Virus record (IMG/VR): IMGVR_UViG_3300048592_000101
Span: 1 to 28,647 of that record
From: a virus
Direction: 5' to 3' (one strand)
DNA length: 28,647 nucleotides
Shown here: piece after piece, positions 1,044-28,523 of the stretch
Layout: each line of letters begins with the position of its first letter
Numbering within the stretch: position 1 is the first letter of the stretch
The notes under the pieces: generated by a model
What the model saw: only the letters and a program-made list of their open reading frames with translations
What the model was told of the DNA's origin: nothing
Database searches by the model: none
Position numbers and translations under genes: made by a program

Positions 1044-1496
1044 ATGGCGAGACGACCGAGGATTGACACGGCAGCCGGTGCGGTTGCTGCGGCTCAGGCT
1101 TCACAGGTGCAGATCAGCCCGCCGTCGAATGTTCCGCTGTCGGCTGAGGATCTTCCGTTCTTCGCGAGCGTGATCGACGAGTTTGCGCGGTCGGAATGGA
1201 CGGCACACCAGCTTGAGCTTGCGGCGATGCTGGCGCGGACGATGGCGGACCTTGAGAAAGACCAACGCTTGATGCGTGTCGAGGGGCCGATCCTTGCGAC
1301 GGATCGCGGAACGCCCGTGGTGAACCCGCGCAAGACGGTAATCCAGATGAATGCGTCAATCATCCTGTCCTATCGCCGCAGCTTGCAGTTGCATGCGCGC
1401 GCGCAAGGTGGCGAGGCGCGGGATACTGGCAAGCGCCGGGCGATTGCGAAGGAATACGAGGGAGACGGCGACGACCTGCTAGCCGGGATGAATTGA
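1044..1496 (+). CDS. terS: Terminase small subunit
   Basis: A 150-residue protein with the layout of the P27-like small terminase family. It has an N-terminal helical region (residues 30-75, SAEDLPFFASVIDEFARSEW onward). A central strand-turn segment follows around GPILATDRGTPVVNPRK (residues 81-97), then a helix with LSYRRSLQLHA (residues 108-118). The family binds the packaging start site and regulates the large subunit. The call rests on pattern and on position: portal, protease and capsid genes follow in standard order after terL. Unusually, terL does not follow directly, because an HNH gene is inserted between them. The ATG at 1044 has only a moderate upstream site (GGTAGG). Confidence 0.85.
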   Translation: MARRPRIDTAAGAVAAAQASQVQISPPSNVPLSAEDLPFFASVIDEFARSEWTAHQLELAAMLARTMADLEKDQRLMRVEGPILATDRGTPVVNPRKTVIQMNASIILSYRRSLQLHARAQGGEARDTGKRRAIAKEYEGDGDDLLAGMN

Positions 1497-1498
1497 CA

Positions 1499-1530
1499 AA
1501 GCCGGAACGCGCTGTAACGCGAACCGGCTT
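1499..1530 (+). promoter_or_regulatory. Strong hairpin between terS and the HNH homing-type gene
   Basis: Three bases after the terS stop lies an interrupted perfect palindrome: AAGCCGG (1499-1505), AA, CGCG (1508-1511), loop CTGTAA, CGCG (1518-1521), AA, CCGGCTT (1524-1530). It would fold as a two-part stem with a symmetric AA/AA internal loop. No T-run follows, so it is a poor intrinsic terminator. It more likely stabilises the terS 3' end or limits expression of the endonuclease gene, whose Shine-Dalgarno begins 14 bases further on. Confidence 0.55.
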
Positions 1531-1557
1531 CTAACCCGCAACCTGAGGTGACAGGCA

Positions 1558-2697
1558 TTGGACTACCAGAGAATTTACAGCGCATTCATTGCATCGCGCA
1601 AGGCTATCGAGCATACGCACGAAGGCTACACGGAAAAACACCACATCGTGCCAAGGTCACTTGGCGGTTCAGATGACCGCGAGAACCTTGTGAAGCTGAC
1701 GCCGGAGGATCACTTCTTCGCGCACCTGCTGCTGGCAAAGGCGACAAACAGCGCGAAGGCGTGGGCTGCATGTATGATTCTCGCAGGTGCGAGGAAAAGC
1801 GGGCGCAGACCTGAAGATGTTCGGCGCGGCCTTGTTCGCCACAGGAAGGTTTTCGCGCTTGTTCGTCGCCAATGGGCTGAGGCCAGTCGTGGAGAGGCCG
1901 CTGCAAACGCTGATTTGACAATCTACACGTTCTTTCACAAGGACGGCGGTAAATTCACTGGAACGCGGATCGCGTTTTCTTCGTTTACTGGAATACCAAG
2001 CGTCAACAGAGACCCGCTAGTGAGGGGGGAAGTGTCATCGTCGTTTGGATGGGCGATGAGCATTGATGTCGCGTCAAGCATTGATCGAGTTAAGACGGAA
2101 AAAGCTACAGCAGCTGGGAAGATGCTTCGCGGATACATAAGGGATAAAAAGGTTTATCCTTTCTTTAGGGAGAGTGACGGACTTTTGATGGTCGCGCGCC
2201 AGTCGGCAATGGTCAAGCTTGGGTATATTTCCAATACCGGCGTTAGCTCGCTTTGCATGGGGAAAAGGTTCTCGGCGTCTGGATGGTGTTTGCTGGAGAA
2301 TTCAGATTGGGCGTTTGACCGTTCAAGGCGATCCGGTCGGTTCAGTGGCGCATATATCTCCGAGGAGTTTACGTTTGTAAATTCTGAGACTGGTGAAGAA
2401 GTTAGGTCTACTGCTTGGGAAATGGGAAAGAACCTCAATGGCGGGGATTCAAGGCCGTTTGCGGCAGTAGCTAGCGGGGCAAGGTCCGGGTGGCGAGGGT
2501 GGCACATTATCGGCAGCAAGAAGCCGCGTGTCTGGGCGAAAGAATATAAGTTTGTCAGATCTTCGGACGGCAACGAGATAATAGGCAGCACCTCAGAATT
2601 GGCGGCCATCCTCGGCGTCACAAGGTCTTCTGTATACCGAGCCGCTAGAGGATATGCGCCGCATGTCAAAGGATATTCCATCTGTGACAAGAGGTGA
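1558..2697 (+). CDS. HNH homing-type endonuclease with repeated DNA-binding modules
   Basis: A 379-residue protein starting at TTG 1558 behind a good GAGGTG site. Residues 20-60 carry an HNH nuclease signature: H28-H29, GG at 36-37, N43, LTPEDH with H52, then H56. The remainder contains four successive segments that each look like a NUMOD-type DNA-binding repeat: residues about 122-185, 198-255, 268-320 and 330-378. Two have the clear pattern of a short strand, a turn, then a helix-turn-helix (GEEVRSTAWEMGKNL; GNEIIGSTSELAAILGVTRSSVYRAA). This is the build of a free-standing homing endonuclease. Codon use is clearly more AT-rich than in terS or the capsid genes, which suggests recent arrival. 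The 3' end overlaps the start of terL. Confidence 0.85.
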   Translation: MDYQRIYSAFIASRKAIEHTHEGYTEKHHIVPRSLGGSDDRENLVKLTPEDHFFAHLLLAKATNSAKAWAACMILAGARKSGRRPEDVRRGLVRHRKVFALVRRQWAEASRGEAAANADLTIYTFFHKDGGKFTGTRIAFSSFTGIPSVNRDPLVRGEVSSSFGWAMSIDVASSIDRVKTEKATAAGKMLRGYIRDKKVYPFFRESDGLLMVARQSAMVKLGYISNTGVSSLCMGKRFSASGWCLLENSDWAFDRSRRSGRFSGAYISEEFTFVNSETGEEVRSTAWEMGKNLNGGDSRPFAAVASGARSGWRGWHIIGSKKPRVWAKEYKFVRSSDGNEIIGSTSELAAILGVTRSSVYRAARGYAPHVKGYSICDKR

Positions 2698-4243
2698 GAG
2701 AGTAATCGCGTTCATTGAGAGATATTGCCGTGTCCCAGAGGGGAAGCATGTCGGTAAGCCTCTCAGGCTTATGGAGTTTCAGAAGAGATTTATACGCGAA
2801 GTCTATTCAAATCCGAATGGAACAAGCCGAGCTTATCTCTCGGTTGGAAGGAAAAATGGAAAGTCAGCGACAATCGCTGCTCTGACTCTGGCTCACCTTG
2901 TGGGGCCGGAGGCTAGGTTAAATAGCCAGATTATAAGCGGCGCTCTCTCAAGAGAGCAGGCGTCTATAATCTTTCGGTTGATGCAGAAGATGATCGGGCT
3001 TGATCCTGATCTTCGGCGCAAGGACGTGACGCGCATCGTGCCGTCGCAAAAGCAGATCATCGGCGTTCGGATGAATACGGAATACCGGGCGATTTCGGCA
3101 GAGGCTGGCACGGCGCACGGGCTTTCCCCGGTGCTGGCGATCCTGGACGAGGTGGGGCAGATCAAAGGGCCGCACAGCGACTTCGTGGAGGCCATCACCA
3201 CGTCGCAGGGCGCTCACGAAAACCCGCTGCTGATTGCGATCAGCACGCAGGCGGCTACGGACAATGACTTGTTCAGCCGGTGGATTGACGACGCGGAAAG
3301 CAGCGAAGATCCACGGATCGTGTCGCACGTCTACACCGCGCCGCAGGATTGCGACCTTCTGGACCGTGAGGCATGGCGGGCCGCTAACCCGGCGATGGGC
3401 GAGTTTCGCAGCGTCACCGATCTTGAGGATCTGGCGGCGCGGGCGGACCGTCTGCCGAGCGAGGAAAACAGCTTTCGCTGGCTGTATCTGAACCAGAGGA
3501 TTGAGGCGACCGCGCCATTCATTAGCCGGAAGGTCTGGGAGGAATGCGCGTTCCCAGTTTCGGATCTTGAAGAGGGCGCTGTGGTTTATGGTGGACTTGA
3601 CCTTTCCGCCGCGAACGACCTGACGGCGTTAGTGTTGGTTTCACCCGTGTCGGATGAAGGCAGGACTGTATGGCATGTCCACCCGACATTCTGGTTGCCG
3701 TCTGAGGGGCTGCGAGAGCGTTCAAAGGCTGATCGCGTTGAATACGATGTTTGGGAAAAGCAGGGATACCTGAGCACTACGCCAGGCAGGGCTATCGAAT
3801 ACGAGTTTGTCGCGGCGCACATGAAGTCAGTGTTTGACCGATATGATGTGCGCAAGATCGCGTTCGACCGCTGGCAGTTCAAATACTTGAAGCCGTGGCT
3901 GGCAAAACTTGGGGTTCGGGAAGAACTGTTGGATGGTGACGACTGCTTGTTCGAGGATTTCGGACAAGGCTTCAAGTCCATGTCGCCCGCGCTGCGTGAT
4001 CTGGAAAGCGCGATCCTTACGCGCGGCATCGCACACGGTGACCACCCGGTCCTGTCGATGTGCGCACAGAATGCGGTGGTGCAGCCGGACCCGGCAGGCA
4101 ACCGCAAGCTGGCGAAGAACAAGAGCCGGGGCCGCATCGACGGCATGGTCGCGCTTGCCATGGCAATGAGCGTGGCCGGGACGTGGCAGGACGAAGCGCC
4201 AATGGCAAACATGAATAGCTTCTTTGAGGCCTTGGGGGCTTGA
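2663..4243 (+). CDS. terL: Terminase large subunit (packaging ATPase and nuclease)
   Basis: A 526-residue HK97-type large terminase. The ATPase half has Walker A GRKNGKSA (residues 62-69) and Walker B LAILDE (158-163). The nuclease half begins at VYGGLDLSAANDL with metal-binding D313, and a late acidic residue is D493 in GRIDGMVAL. It translocates DNA into the prohead and cuts it. The start is ambiguous. ATG 2654, ATG 2663 and GTG 2684 are all in frame; 2663 sits 11 bases after AGAGG, while GTG 2684 follows AAAGGA. All choices overlap the end of the HNH gene. Bases up to about 2990 are AT-rich like that gene, and the rest matches the GC-rich capsid genes. Confidence 0.95.
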   Translation: MSKDIPSVTRGERVIAFIERYCRVPEGKHVGKPLRLMEFQKRFIREVYSNPNGTSRAYLSVGRKNGKSATIAALTLAHLVGPEARLNSQIISGALSREQASIIFRLMQKMIGLDPDLRRKDVTRIVPSQKQIIGVRMNTEYRAISAEAGTAHGLSPVLAILDEVGQIKGPHSDFVEAITTSQGAHENPLLIAISTQAATDNDLFSRWIDDAESSEDPRIVSHVYTAPQDCDLLDREAWRAANPAMGEFRSVTDLEDLAARADRLPSEENSFRWLYLNQRIEATAPFISRKVWEECAFPVSDLEEGAVVYGGLDLSAANDLTALVLVSPVSDEGRTVWHVHPTFWLPSEGLRERSKADRVEYDVWEKQGYLSTTPGRAIEYEFVAAHMKSVFDRYDVRKIAFDRWQFKYLKPWLAKLGVREELLDGDDCLFEDFGQGFKSMSPALRDLESAILTRGIAHGDHPVLSMCAQNAVVQPDPAGNRKLAKNKSRGRIDGMVALAMAMSVAGTWQDEAPMANMNSFFEALGA

Positions 4244-24686: not shown

Positions 24687-25057
24687 TTGAAAAACCCTCC
24701 AAAGCTGAGTTTCAGCGCCACCATTGCCCGCGTGTAAGGCTGCCTGACCTTGTATTCCGCGCGCCACTTGCTCCACGTCGGATAGCGGTTGCAGATGTAG
24801 GCCCCGCCGTATTCCAGCACCGCATGCCCGTTGCCCGACTTCGTGATGGTGCGGATGATCCGCGCCCGGCCCGTCAGCAGCGCCTTGACGACGCGCGCCT
24901 TGCTGTTGCCGTGCAGCCGCCACAGCACCGTCAGTGCGAAGTCCTCGCAATCGCCATCCCTGCGCCCGATCACCCACTTGTCGGCCCAGCCGTCGGCGCG
25001 GTAGAGGAAATGCAGGCGCATCCAGGCTGCGGCGTCTTTCATGTCCTGCGTGATCAT
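24683..25057 (-). CDS. Transglutaminase-like cysteine protein
   Basis: A 124-residue protein with the transglutaminase-like peptidase core: RRDGDCEDFALTVLW (C37), then GNGHAVLEYGGAYICNRYPTW (H78). The third member of the triad, normally aspartate after ...lD, is an asparagine here (N90). It could cut or cross-link peptides, or be a non-catalytic relative. The bacterial family (BTLCP-like) is usually exported, but no signal peptide is present. ATG 25057 overlaps the methyltransferase stop (ATGA) behind GGAGAG. Its use in an early phage operon is unclear; a host protein target is possible. Confidence 0.75.
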   Translation of the reverse strand: MITQDMKDAAAWMRLHFLYRADGWADKWVIGRRDGDCEDFALTVLWRLHGNSKARVVKALLTGRARIIRTITKSGNGHAVLEYGGAYICNRYPTWSKWRAEYKVRQPYTRAMVALKLSFGGFFK

Positions 25058-26289
25058 GCGTCTCTCCATTGATCCACGATGGCGATGCGTTCGCCTATCC
25101 ATTCCGCGCAATTTGTCGCCCACGAGTTGCCGATGGCCTTGTAGCGCGGCCCGTCTGCGGCTGGCTTGTTGCGGTAGGGCACTTGGGTCCAGCCGTCAGG
25201 AAATCCCTGGAGCCGCTCGCACTCGACGGGCGTGAGGCGGCGCACGGCGGATGCAGTGACAGCACACTGTATTTGTCCGCCGCCTGTCGGGCTTTGCTTC
25301 GTGAGCGTCAGGGCGTGATCTGCCGCAAATTTTGGCGTCTGCTCCGTAGTCAGGCCAAAGGCGACAGCGATCAGCGTCTCCGTCTCCGCATCGAGGCTCT
25401 GCTGCGCGCTGGCGGTCAGGCAATAGCCTACGTCGCCGGAGTTGGCTTCGATCAGTGCGGCTCCAACGCCTATCCCTGCTCGACCTCCATTAGGTGTCAG
25501 GATGGCGTTGGCGACCTCATCACCGAGTTCTATCTGCGGGGTTCCGTCCCTGCCACGGATCGCAAGGCTTCGCGCAACTCTCGCGGCAATTCCTTGCCCC
25601 GTTTCTCGGCGCGGCGCAGGGTGCCCTGACAGGCTTTCGCGGTCAAATAATACCGCTGCGGCACGTCGCCAGTCTCCAAGATATCCGACAACGAACACAC
25701 GGCGGCGGCGCTGTGGGACAGCCCGAGGGAGGCTGCGTGTTCTGACGTGCTGAGCGTCAAGAGTGCGGTATCCGAACCCATAGCCGAGTTCTTGAAGTCC
25801 GGCCAAGAAACAGGCGAACGCATGGTCTTCATCACTTTCGTATTCGTCAACGACCACGACTTCTTCCCCGACTTTGGGTCCATCGTCACGGTCCAAGTCG
25901 ATGTCCGGCGGACGCTGATCGGGAGCGTCGTGGGAAGTCGCTGAGTAAACTCCGGGGACGTTCTCCCAGACCAGCCAGCGGGGGCGATACTTTGCAGCGA
26001 TGGCAAGATATGTGAGGGCGAGGTTCCCGCGTGGGTCAGCCAGCCCCTTTCGCAGGCCCGCAACGCTGAATGACTGGCAGGGGGTTCCGCCGCAAAGAAC
26101 ATCGACATCTGCATCGGGCCAGTCCTCGTATTTGGTCATGTCGCCCCAATTCGGAACGTCAGGAAAGCGATGCGCCAAGACAGCGCAGGGGAAAGGCTCG
26201 ATCTCGCTGAACGCAACGGGCTTCCAGCCGAGCGGTGCCCATGCGACGGATGCGGCTTCGATGCCGGAGCAGACGCTGAGGTATCTCAA
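25054..26289 (-). CDS. DNA (cytosine-5) methyltransferase
   Basis: A 411-residue enzyme of the C5 family. Motif I is YLSVCSGIEAASVAW (residues 3-17) and motif IV is GGTPCQSFSVAG with catalytic C71. Motif VI is WENVPGV (108-114), motif VIII QRRRRVFVVGYLGDW, and motif X YKAIGNSWATN near the end. The stretch between VIII and X, about residues 235-350, is the target-recognition region and gives no clue to the site. There is no adjacent endonuclease, so it is an orphan that probably protects phage DNA from host restriction. TTG 26289 is supported by the overlapping stop of the gene before it (TTGA) and upstream GGAGGGGCGGGG. Confidence 0.93.
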   Translation of the reverse strand: MRYLSVCSGIEAASVAWAPLGWKPVAFSEIEPFPCAVLAHRFPDVPNWGDMTKYEDWPDADVDVLCGGTPCQSFSVAGLRKGLADPRGNLALTYLAIAAKYRPRWLVWENVPGVYSATSHDAPDQRPPDIDLDRDDGPKVGEEVVVVDEYESDEDHAFACFLAGLQELGYGFGYRTLDAQHVRTRSLPRAVPQRRRRVFVVGYLGDWRRAAAVLFDRESLSGHPAPRRETGQGIAARVARSLAIRGRDGTPQIELGDEVANAILTPNGGRAGIGVGAALIEANSGDVGYCLTASAQQSLDAETETLIAVAFGLTTEQTPKFAADHALTLTKQSPTGGGQIQCAVTASAVRRLTPVECERLQGFPDGWTQVPYRNKPAADGPRYKAIGNSWATNCAEWIGERIAIVDQWRDA

Positions 26290-26459
26290 TTCCCCGCCCC
26301 TCCGCCTGAGTAATATCCACCGCCTGACAGCCCGTCGCCGCAGTGGCCACCTACTGCTATGCGGGATCGGCACCGCGACGGCTCCGTGTCCATGATCTCC
26401 ACAGCGACAGGCCCGCCGATTGCGCAGAGGCCGAACAGCACCCAGATTTTCCAGGTCAT
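26286..26459 (-). CDS. 57-residue membrane or exported peptide with Gly/Tyr-rich tail
   Basis: A gene starting at ATG 26459 (ATGA overlap) and ending at a TGA that overlaps the methyltransferase TTG. It begins MTWKIWVLFGLCAIGGPVAV, a membrane or signal segment. Next comes a short region with two cysteines (C30, C40), then GDGLSGGGYYSGGGAGN. The flexible glycine/tyrosine tail is unusual. Both junctions fit exactly, so it is very likely translated. Function unknown. Confidence 0.7.
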   Translation of the reverse strand: MTWKIWVLFGLCAIGGPVAVEIMDTEPSRCRSRIAVGGHCGDGLSGGGYYSGGGAGN

Positions 26460-26776
26460 TGCCGCACCTCGCGGACGTGGATGATCTGACTGCCGCCATC
26501 AGGGAGATTGGCATTGTGCTGCTCGGCTTGCGCTGATGTGTCCCACGCCATGCCGTCGTAAAGCGTGATCCAGAACTCGCGCGGCTCGCGCGGCTCGCGG
26601 TATTCCTCCACCACGCGGAAGGAACTGATCGGGGTTTTTTTGTCATCCCAGTTCCAGTTGCCCGCAGGTTCCGTGTACCAACCTTCGCAGGTGGAAACCT
26701 GAACGACACTTTCAGCATGAACCGGGCATTCGCCGCCGTTCCAGCCGTACCAGACATTTTCCTTGTATTCGGTCAT
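26456..26776 (-). CDS. Unrecognised small cytoplasmic protein
   Basis: A 106-residue protein starting at ATG 26776, with AGAGGG upstream and an ATGA overlap with the previous gene. It begins TEYKENVWYGWNGGECPVH and is rich in tryptophan and aromatic residues (NVWYGWNGG, WYTEPAGNWNW, FWITLYDGMAW). The centre has an EEYREPREPREFW segment. The pattern WYxWxGGExPVxxxxxVxV is common in small phage proteins of the early region. They look like compact beta domains that may bind a protein or nucleotide ligand. No known function. Confidence 0.7.
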   Translation of the reverse strand: MTEYKENVWYGWNGGECPVHAESVVQVSTCEGWYTEPAGNWNWDDKKTPISSFRVVEEYREPREPREFWITLYDGMAWDTSAQAEQHNANLPDGGSQIIHVREVRQ

Positions 26777-27332: not shown

Positions 27333-27670
27333 TTGCGCCTCCATGGGCTGTTCAGTTGCCCGGCCAGCGCATCAGCGACGACCGGCAGGTAATCGGTGTC
27401 TTGGCCGTAGGTCTCGACCCACCATTCGCGGCGGGTGTGGATGCCGTCGGCCCCGGTGTGGTGACGCTCGCAGAGAGGAATGGTCTGCGTGTCAGGCGCC
27501 TTGCGCTGGCTGTAGCGGCCACAGATCACGTGATGGACCTGCGCCGGGATCTTGCCGCACACGATGCATGGCAACTGCGCCACGCGGGCCATGTGGTCGC
27601 GGCCTGCGCTCTTGGATGGGCGGGGAGCCTTGAGGCCAAGCGGGCCTTTCTGGATGGCGAGGAACGTCAT
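27329..27670 (-). CDS. HNH nuclease of the Ref/DUF968-like group
   Basis: A 113-residue protein with a complete HNH-type zinc nuclease pattern: LPCIVCGK (C35, C38), VHHV (H46-H47), TIPLCERHH (C67, H70-H71) and GIH (H78), followed by a REWWVETYG helix. This spacing matches the Ref family of phage P1, a RecA-dependent nuclease that enhances recombination (established for P1 Ref), and related phage DUF968-type proteins. The neighbouring NinB gene supports a recombination role. The basic N-terminus (GLKAPRPSKSAGRDHMARV) would bind DNA. ATG 27670 has only a weak ribosome site and relies on the overlap with the preceding gene. Confidence 0.82.
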   Translation of the reverse strand: MTFLAIQKGPLGLKAPRPSKSAGRDHMARVAQLPCIVCGKIPAQVHHVICGRYSQRKAPDTQTIPLCERHHTGADGIHTRREWWVETYGQDTDYLPVVADALAGQLNSPWRRK

Positions 27671-28134
27671 GCCGCCACCATCGACATGCCGGGGCCGATT
27701 GCCCGCTTCATTTGCCGGTCGTAGAGGACCACGTTCACCGTTGCGGCGAGGTTCATGCAGCACCGCGTCGGGACATAGACAACATGCTGCGCGCGGTCGG
27801 TATGCTTGCGCCCTAGCGTCCCATCCTCGGGGCCGAACAGATACAGCGCCCGCTTCGGGTGGGTGAAATTCGGCAGAGGCGTTGCGCCCTCGATCAGGTC
27901 AACGACGACGATCTGCGTGTCGTATGGCACGCTCGCCAGCAGGTCATCTACAAGGTAAGTCGGCATGTGCCGGTGAGCGGCTGGCGTGTTGGTGCTGTGG
28001 CTGAGAAACTTGCCGCGCCCTCCTTCGATGCTGACACTGCTGACCCCGTAGCAATGCGCCGCCCGAAGTACCGCGCCGACGTTTTCGCCAGTCTTTGGGC
28101 GATACAGGCCGATACAGGAAAACCCGGTAATCAT
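27667..28134 (-). CDS. SPOUT-class RNA methyltransferase (SpoU/TrmL-like)
   Basis: A 155-residue protein with the three SpoU motifs: ENVGAVLRAA (residues 17-26), LYLFGPEDGTLG (97-108), and VYVPTRCCMNLAATVNVVLYD (119-139), where N128 lies in the knot. Size and motif order match the minimal TrmL-type tRNA 2'-O-methyltransferases (about 155-160 residues), which modify the wobble base. Substitution of the usual SLNLS by CMNLA leaves the exact substrate uncertain. It would bind S-adenosylmethionine at the C-terminal knot. It lies between ninB and the Ref-like gene with ATGA overlaps on both sides, so it belongs to the phage operon. Confidence 0.88.
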   Translation of the reverse strand: MITGFSCIGLYRPKTGENVGAVLRAAHCYGVSSVSIEGGRGKFLSHSTNTPAAHRHMPTYLVDDLLASVPYDTQIVVVDLIEGATPLPNFTHPKRALYLFGPEDGTLGRKHTDRAQHVVYVPTRCCMNLAATVNVVLYDRQMKRAIGPGMSMVAA

Positions 28135-28523
28135 GCCGCCACCTCTGCCCAGATATCCACGCCTTGCTCGGCGCACCACGCTTCCATGAACGTCTGCAGG
28201 TCGGACATTTCGCGCACCGACAGATCCGACGACCGGAAGCCCGTGGGGAAAAACCCGGCCCCATCCAGCGTGGGCAAGAATTGCGCCTCCTTGCCCATCG
28301 CCTTCATGAAGATGCACTTCCACGCATCTGGCTCGAATGACTTGCCGCCGATGGTCATGCGCTTGGACACGCGGCCCAGGATTTCCCACATGCGGTCATT
28401 CTGGGCGTCGCTGCGCTTGGGTGCCTTGAACTCCACGCGCCAACCAAGCTGCGCTGCACGGTCCAGCCATGCGCGCGCGGTGCTGATGCGTGCGGGGTTG
28501 TCCAGCGTGATTGCGTGGCGCAT
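28131..28523 (-). CDS. ninB: NinB-like recombination protein
   Basis: A 130-residue protein of the lambda NinB (Orf) group, which helps load recombinase onto single-stranded DNA covered by SSB. The family core is clear: WRVEFKAPKRSDAQNDRMWEILGRVSK (residues 28-54), KCIFMKAMGKE, then SSDLSVREMSDLQTFMEAWCAEQGV (residues 98-122). In lambda, Orf replaces RecFOR functions. ATG 28523 lies one base after the stop of the preceding gene. The end overlaps the RNA methyltransferase start by four bases. Confidence 0.9.
   Translation of the reverse strand: MRHAITLDNPARISTARAWLDRAAQLGWRVEFKAPKRSDAQNDRMWEILGRVSKRMTIGGKSFEPDAWKCIFMKAMGKEAQFLPTLDGAGFFPTGFRSSDLSVREMSDLQTFMEAWCAEQGVDIWAEVAA

Follow-up and report, generated by a model that had tools for sequence, protein, structure and literature searches.

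The window analysed here, which is the whole of a 28,647-base virus record (IMGVR_UViG_3300048592_000101), contains a homing endonuclease gene at the junction of the terminase genes terS and terL, and it is likely that homing of this gene left a one-sided co-conversion tract in terL by break repair (2684–2975, plus strand, including the Walker A codons). The enzyme would cut HNH-free terL alleles within their 5′ end, probably at a point that corresponds to window positions 2804–2983, and repair from an HNH-positive genome would copy the HNH gene plus the terL sequence beyond the cut. The outcome would be a one-sided tract in which the protein is conserved and the codons are those of the donor. 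For the window phage itself, co-conversion is the best explanation, and the evidence is indirect, as it comes from composition. The mechanism, which had been put forward in a preliminary description of this DNA, is strongly supported by a sister clade and by other HNH-positive lineages.

The gene order is that of an HK97-type phage, with an HNH-kinase gene (167–895), terS (1044–1496, plus strand), the HNH gene (1558–2697, plus strand), terL (2684–4243, plus strand), and the portal, protease, and capsid genes. The terS gene, which encodes the terminase small subunit, matches phrog_5601 (E 4.9e-47). In terL, the gene of the large subunit, the ATPase and nuclease domains are intact (Pfam TerL_ATPase and TerL_nuclease), and the GTG start is kept in all relatives; ATG 2654 and ATG 2663 are possible alternative starts. 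Among named phages, Paracoccus phage Shpa is the nearest over this region (about 70% identity across 44%), although its terL is distant from that of the window (28% identity).

The gene at 167–895, which is located 5′ of terS, encodes a fusion of an HNH nuclease with a P-loop kinase domain (AAA_33). A free-standing relative of its kinase part (29% identity, E 1e-14) was observed between terS and terL of L097 (1481–1960). The phage also encodes, on the minus strand, a C-5 cytosine DNA methyltransferase (25054–26757; PF00145, E 1.7e-40) and a SpoU-type RNA methyltransferase (27667–28389; PF00588, E 4.8e-14).

Composition and codon usage of the terL 5′ end

The HNH gene had been described as AT-rich compared with terS and the capsid genes, and GC3 bears this out, being 57.0 in the HNH gene, 72.7 in terS, which has a native composition, and 75.2 in the capsid gene; that of the portal gene is 71.3. 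The AT-rich style was also said to run through roughly the first 300 bases of terL, including the Walker A codons, and to revert near 2990. Both points agree with our results, as GC3 is 47.4 in terL codons 1–97 and 73.2 in codons 98–519. The best break in terL falls at codon 97 (position 2975, from 47% to 73%); of 2000 synonymous shuffles, 1 equalled or beat it.

Codon usage makes a stronger case than GC for a foreign terL 5′ end. When codons were scored by the usage of HNH codons 113–379 versus the usage of other genes, terL codons 1–97 reached +0.439 per codon. All 184 control windows, matched in length and taken from 18 other genes, scored lower, with a highest value of −0.039 and a mean of −0.279 (s.d. 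0.095). AGA and AGG account for 8 of the 11 Arg codons in terL 1–97 versus 3 of 30 in the remaining terL.

A two-state codon HMM delimited a foreign block at 1756–3005 (plus strand), which covers the DNA-binding part of the HNH protein and the terL 5′ end. The right edge of this block agrees with the 2990 set previously; the left edge, previously set at 1558, has to be moved to near 1756, inside the HNH gene. The first 66 or so HNH codons (1558–1755, plus strand), which encode the nuclease core, look native and stay in the native state of the HMM, and the foreign composition begins after them. Similarity to related HNH proteins also drops sharply past the nuclease core. GC3 alone located no break within the HNH gene (as strong a break arose in 310 of 2000 shuffles), and we place one there because both the codon HMM and the drop in protein similarity point to it. 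It is possible, though less likely than not, that the HNH gene of the window itself arose by a specificity swap, which would have attached a new DNA-binding part and the matching resistant terL 5′ allele to a nuclease core and leader already resident.

Lowered synonymous identity to relatives, together with foreign-like codons, was also observed in terL at 3554–3848, a stretch that does not adjoin the HNH gene, and the codon HMM additionally flagged some gene starts. Mosaicism or unusual composition is therefore present elsewhere in this phage too, and the 5′ tract is its strongest odd stretch and not the sole one.

Comparison of terL with its relatives

Against 14 related terL genes, some of which are near-identical to one another, the protein identity of codons 1–102 is normal (74–82%), and codon identity at shared residues is 33–44% in codons 1–102 versus 40–58% in the rest. 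With pairs of HNH-free relatives as the reference, the synonymous identity of the window is lowered by up to 14 points at codons 21–100 and raised immediately past codon 100. The end branch of the window measures 0.73 in the tree of codons 1–97, whereas it measures 0.30 in the tree of codons 131–500.

Separate trees had been proposed as a check, with the expectation that the two parts of terL would have different nearest relatives. They differ nominally, the N part being nearest to L035/L042 and the C part to L027/L153/L030; the AU test on the N part did not reject the clade of the C tree (p-AU 0.17), and the compared sequences include no donor or close HNH-free relative. A search of IMG/VR, GTDB genomes, phages, and plasmids found neither of these, the best match having about 74% nucleotide identity.

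Divergence of the terL 5′ end in HNH-positive lineages

The 5′ deficit was defined as the identity of terL codons 1–96 minus that of codons 161–495, measured against the nearest uninserted relative, and HNH-positive lineages with a relative above 66% identity were counted. All six usable lineages show a deficit, ranging from −6.4 to about −23 (L104 clade −19 to −23, L154 −17.6, L155 −14.9, L158 −11.9, L153, which equals L233, −7.4, and the window −6.4), versus a mean of −1.2 in 72 uninserted phages (s.d. 3.3), the lineage groupings for this and for the following GC3 comparison having been set after inspection of the data. The value of the window is barely past the 5th percentile of the uninserted phages (−6.0). 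In these groupings, GC3 of codons 1–97 minus that of the rest averaged −7.9 in 8 HNH-positive lineages, compared with +1.1 in 80 without an insert (p 7e-4 by rank test, the lineages being not fully independent). The GC3 drop is absent from L161 and L156, which both carry an HNH gene.

A sister clade (L104, L106, and L234–L241) has an unrelated small HNH gene (phrog_374/phrog_1035) at the terS/terL junction, and L091–L105 include close relatives that lack it. The terS genes of L104 and HNH-free L103 are 97% identical up to the insert, and their terL genes are mostly 92–100% identical past +418, while identity from −60 to +418 is just 60–77%. L104 and L106 show 100% identity from the HNH gene to about +400 of terL, whereas their flanks differ by up to 13–17% per 60-nt bin, and the same pattern was found in the pair L238/L239. 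Comparison of 5 HNH-positive with 10 HNH-negative haplotypes gave 55 fixed differences. All of them fall at terL +0 to +397, whereas the remainder of the gene, which has 325 polymorphic sites, contains not one; the divergence between the two groups is 29.7% in codons 1–139 versus 8.5% in codons 141–499. The 5′ part of the L104 terL is nearest to L114 (82% versus 73% to L103), and its 3′ part is nearest to L103 (94% versus 82%).

In every haplotype of the L104 clade, the tract stops near +400, and its linkage to the HNH gene is complete, which is the mark of co-conversion in a clade that carries a different HNH gene from that of the window. Comparison of these haplotypes shows that an HNH gene travels as one block with some 400 nt of terL, as one-sided co-conversion predicts. 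The terL gene of this clade has two 5′ alleles, one of which is always accompanied by the HNH gene. A homing gene can sort the alleles of an essential gene in natural phage sequences, beyond the crosses of T4. Where terL is used as a phage marker, its first 420 nt or so should not be assumed to have a single history.

An unlikely explanation of these data is ordinary mosaicism, in which the C-terminal part of the HNH gene and the 5′ end of terL arrived through recombination, homologous or illegitimate, that was not driven by an endonuclease. Odd stretches do occur in terL away from any HNH gene, as at 3554–3848 of the window and in L134/L126, where a mosaic stretch covers codons ~280–380; moreover, L146 shows a 5′ deficit of −15.9 with no HNH ORF, even if an HNH gene could have been lost there. 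On the other hand, the divergent stretch of HNH-positive lineages repeatedly lies on the terL side and begins at the HNH gene, and other inserts at the junction are not accompanied by one, as the deficit is +9.6 in L134 and +5.6 in L117, which carry methyltransferases, and +1.0 in L097, which carries a kinase. The common end and the complete HNH linkage of the tract in the L104 clade also argue against mosaicism.

The inserts of L134 (528–1727) and L117 (544–1800) are ParB/DNA-methyltransferase-like genes between terS and terL, and no divergent terL 5′ tract accompanies them. The terS–terL gap of L146 (507–865) is 359 nt long and has no ORF of its own, and neither an HNH remnant nor an Rfam RNA was found in it. 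This gap may be the scar of a lost homing gene.

It is more doubtful still that the terL 5′ end of the phage was recoded in place, that is, changed synonymously to escape cutting and with no donor DNA. The carrier of a homing endonuclease is expected to be self-resistant, and the terL 5′ protein of the window is conserved while its codons are changed. However, about 300 bp far exceeds what a recognition site needs, and the terL 5′ codons match the usage of the HNH gene, unlike random change. The 5′ allele of the L104 clade, being nearest to that of L114, differs in protein too.

The HNH enzyme and its insertion at the terS/terL junction

The gene at 1558–2697, which starts with TTG, is by its sequence a free-standing Mob-type HNH homing endonuclease, with a nuclease core and a repeated DNA-binding region. 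It matches the curated homing families phrog_655, annotated as 'homing endonuclease' (E 3.5e-33), and phrog_10088 (E 1.7e-12), and the Pfam HNH match (E 1.3e-4) is above the cut-off. It shares 46% identity over 100 aa with the nrdA-adjacent endonuclease that is annotated mobE in T-even phages, and its nuclease core is 80% identical to that of L152/L153 across 61 aa. The HNH active site is intact, with H28, H29, P32, N43, H52, and H56 invariant in 7 relatives, and the predicted strand-strand-helix core covers residues 26–63. In the AlphaFold2 model (mean pLDDT 67), the core is followed by four similar strand-strand-helix-helix-strand units, and the best viral fold matches (BFVD) include MobB and MobC of T4 and MobE of phiN3. 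A fold search of the PDB gave no significant match, I-HmuI (1u3e) ranking third by E-value (0.59). The intact HNH residues, the curated-family match, the location outside an intron or intein, and the variable presence among relatives are those of a Mob-type gene.

The conserved terL start, GTG 2684, overlaps the HNH stop by 14 nt. The HNH gene is an insertion at the terS/terL junction, because in HNH-free relatives the two terminase genes adjoin directly or share a few bases. The preliminary description had correctly placed the gene between terS and terL, and its homing "into terL" has to be read as insertion at this junction. An intron- or intein-encoded endonuclease in terL was ruled out, as the full terL aligns from its conserved start with no interruption.

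The best matches of the HNH core lie directly 5′ of terL in 6 of 7 lineages, even where terL is only about half identical, and six of the seven terL-linked copies have their stop between 35 nt inside terL and 1 nt before the terL start. Among 10 distinct terL relatives of 74–78% identity, one (L153) carries an HNH gene at the junction, and the gene is missing from most close relatives. It is very improbable that the HNH protein serves packaging, like gp74 of HK97, instead of homing and that the composition of the terL start is unrelated to it. Terminase-adjacent HNH proteins do act in HK97 packaging, as discussed in PMC10448857, but the usual place 5′ of terS is already taken by the HNH-kinase gene at 167–895, and the gene at 1558 lies 3′ of terS, matches Mob-type homing families, and is not conserved among related phages.

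The two-hairpin RNA leader

The interval from the terS stop to the HNH start holds an RNA leader with two hairpins (1497–1566, plus strand), which is common to four terL-linked lineages, namely the window, L029/L153, L158, and L159–L161. Hairpin 1 has a stem at 1499–1505/1524–1530, an AA/AA internal loop, and an inner stem at 1508–1511/1518–1521. Hairpin 2 has a stem at 1542–1545/1552–1555, and its loop holds the Shine-Dalgarno sequence AGGTG (1546–1550). Compensatory changes occur at five pairs, and 92% of cells pair (n = 4 sequences), while slid versions all remain below 44%. The leader has no match in Rfam.

A covariance model of the leader (R1) was searched against about 1.35 Mb of sequence and gave one further convincing match, in L132 (25.1 bits). 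In this phage, the two-hairpin leader (2665–2730) stands before an unrelated HNH gene (2723–3385), 5′ of terS, and hairpin 2 has the same form built from different bases. A DNA-pattern search for leaders gave 16 matches, among which L254, from the same contig as L132, alone has both hairpins before an HNH gene. The best covariance-model match in a Shinella genome was dropped, having no adjacent HNH gene. The class to which the Shinella match belongs was also searched (385 genomes) and yielded neither a donor nor a close HNH-free relative.

For the mobE gene of Aeh1, control by a hairpin that masks the ribosome-binding site has been reported (PMC2988022), and because of this precedent, translation control is the likeliest role of the leader, which probably limits or times translation of the endonuclease. 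The weaker match in L132 suggests that the leader could be a control element common to different homing genes. We tentatively raise the possibility, with more doubt than confidence, that a clade of Mob-type HNH genes has become specialised on the HK97-type terS/terL junction as a terminase-specific homing cassette that is carried with its own two-hairpin leader.

Comparison with known homing systems

A terminase-linked homing gene with co-conversion is a known kind of system. In the literature searched, neither a terL-linked Mob-type clade with a leader nor a natural terL dimorphism was found described. The target region predicted here and the candidate regulatory RNA are both testable.

In T4, co-conversion and intronless homing are classical (PMC2988022). 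MobE and the other Mob HNH enzymes of T4-like phages (phrog_655) resemble the window gene in their HNH core, in being free-standing genes between essential genes, in the RNA hairpin around the ribosome-binding site, which is reported for mobE of Aeh1 (PMC2988022), and, probably, in the co-conversion of flanking DNA. Unlike them, the window gene lies between HK97-type terS and terL and not beside nrdA/nrdB, has a longer DNA-binding part and a different leader sequence, and is known from sequence alone. The Seg enzymes belong to the GIY-YIG type. SegF and SegG of T4 are cited for intronless homing in which a distant cut leads to co-conversion (PMC12724721, PMC2988022), and the present tract likewise occupies one side, in the neighbouring gene, as a cut located there would predict; homing by SegF and SegG was demonstrated by crosses, whereas that of the window gene is deduced from sequence. 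The packaging HNH of the HK97 gp74 type, discussed in PMC10448857, also adjoins the terminase genes. In contrast to it, the gene at 1558 lies 3′ of terS and is dispensable across relatives, and the gp74-like position is held by 167–895.

Barth et al. (PMC10448857) noted a hot spot of homing genes near the terminase genes, with exchange boundaries at nuclease genes. Their systems are like the present one in the varied endonuclease families at the terminase, the adjoining exchanged segments, and the modular DNA-binding parts. Their neighbourhoods or islands extend over 10 kb, whereas the present case concerns a terL allele of about 400 nt that is fully linked to an HNH gene.
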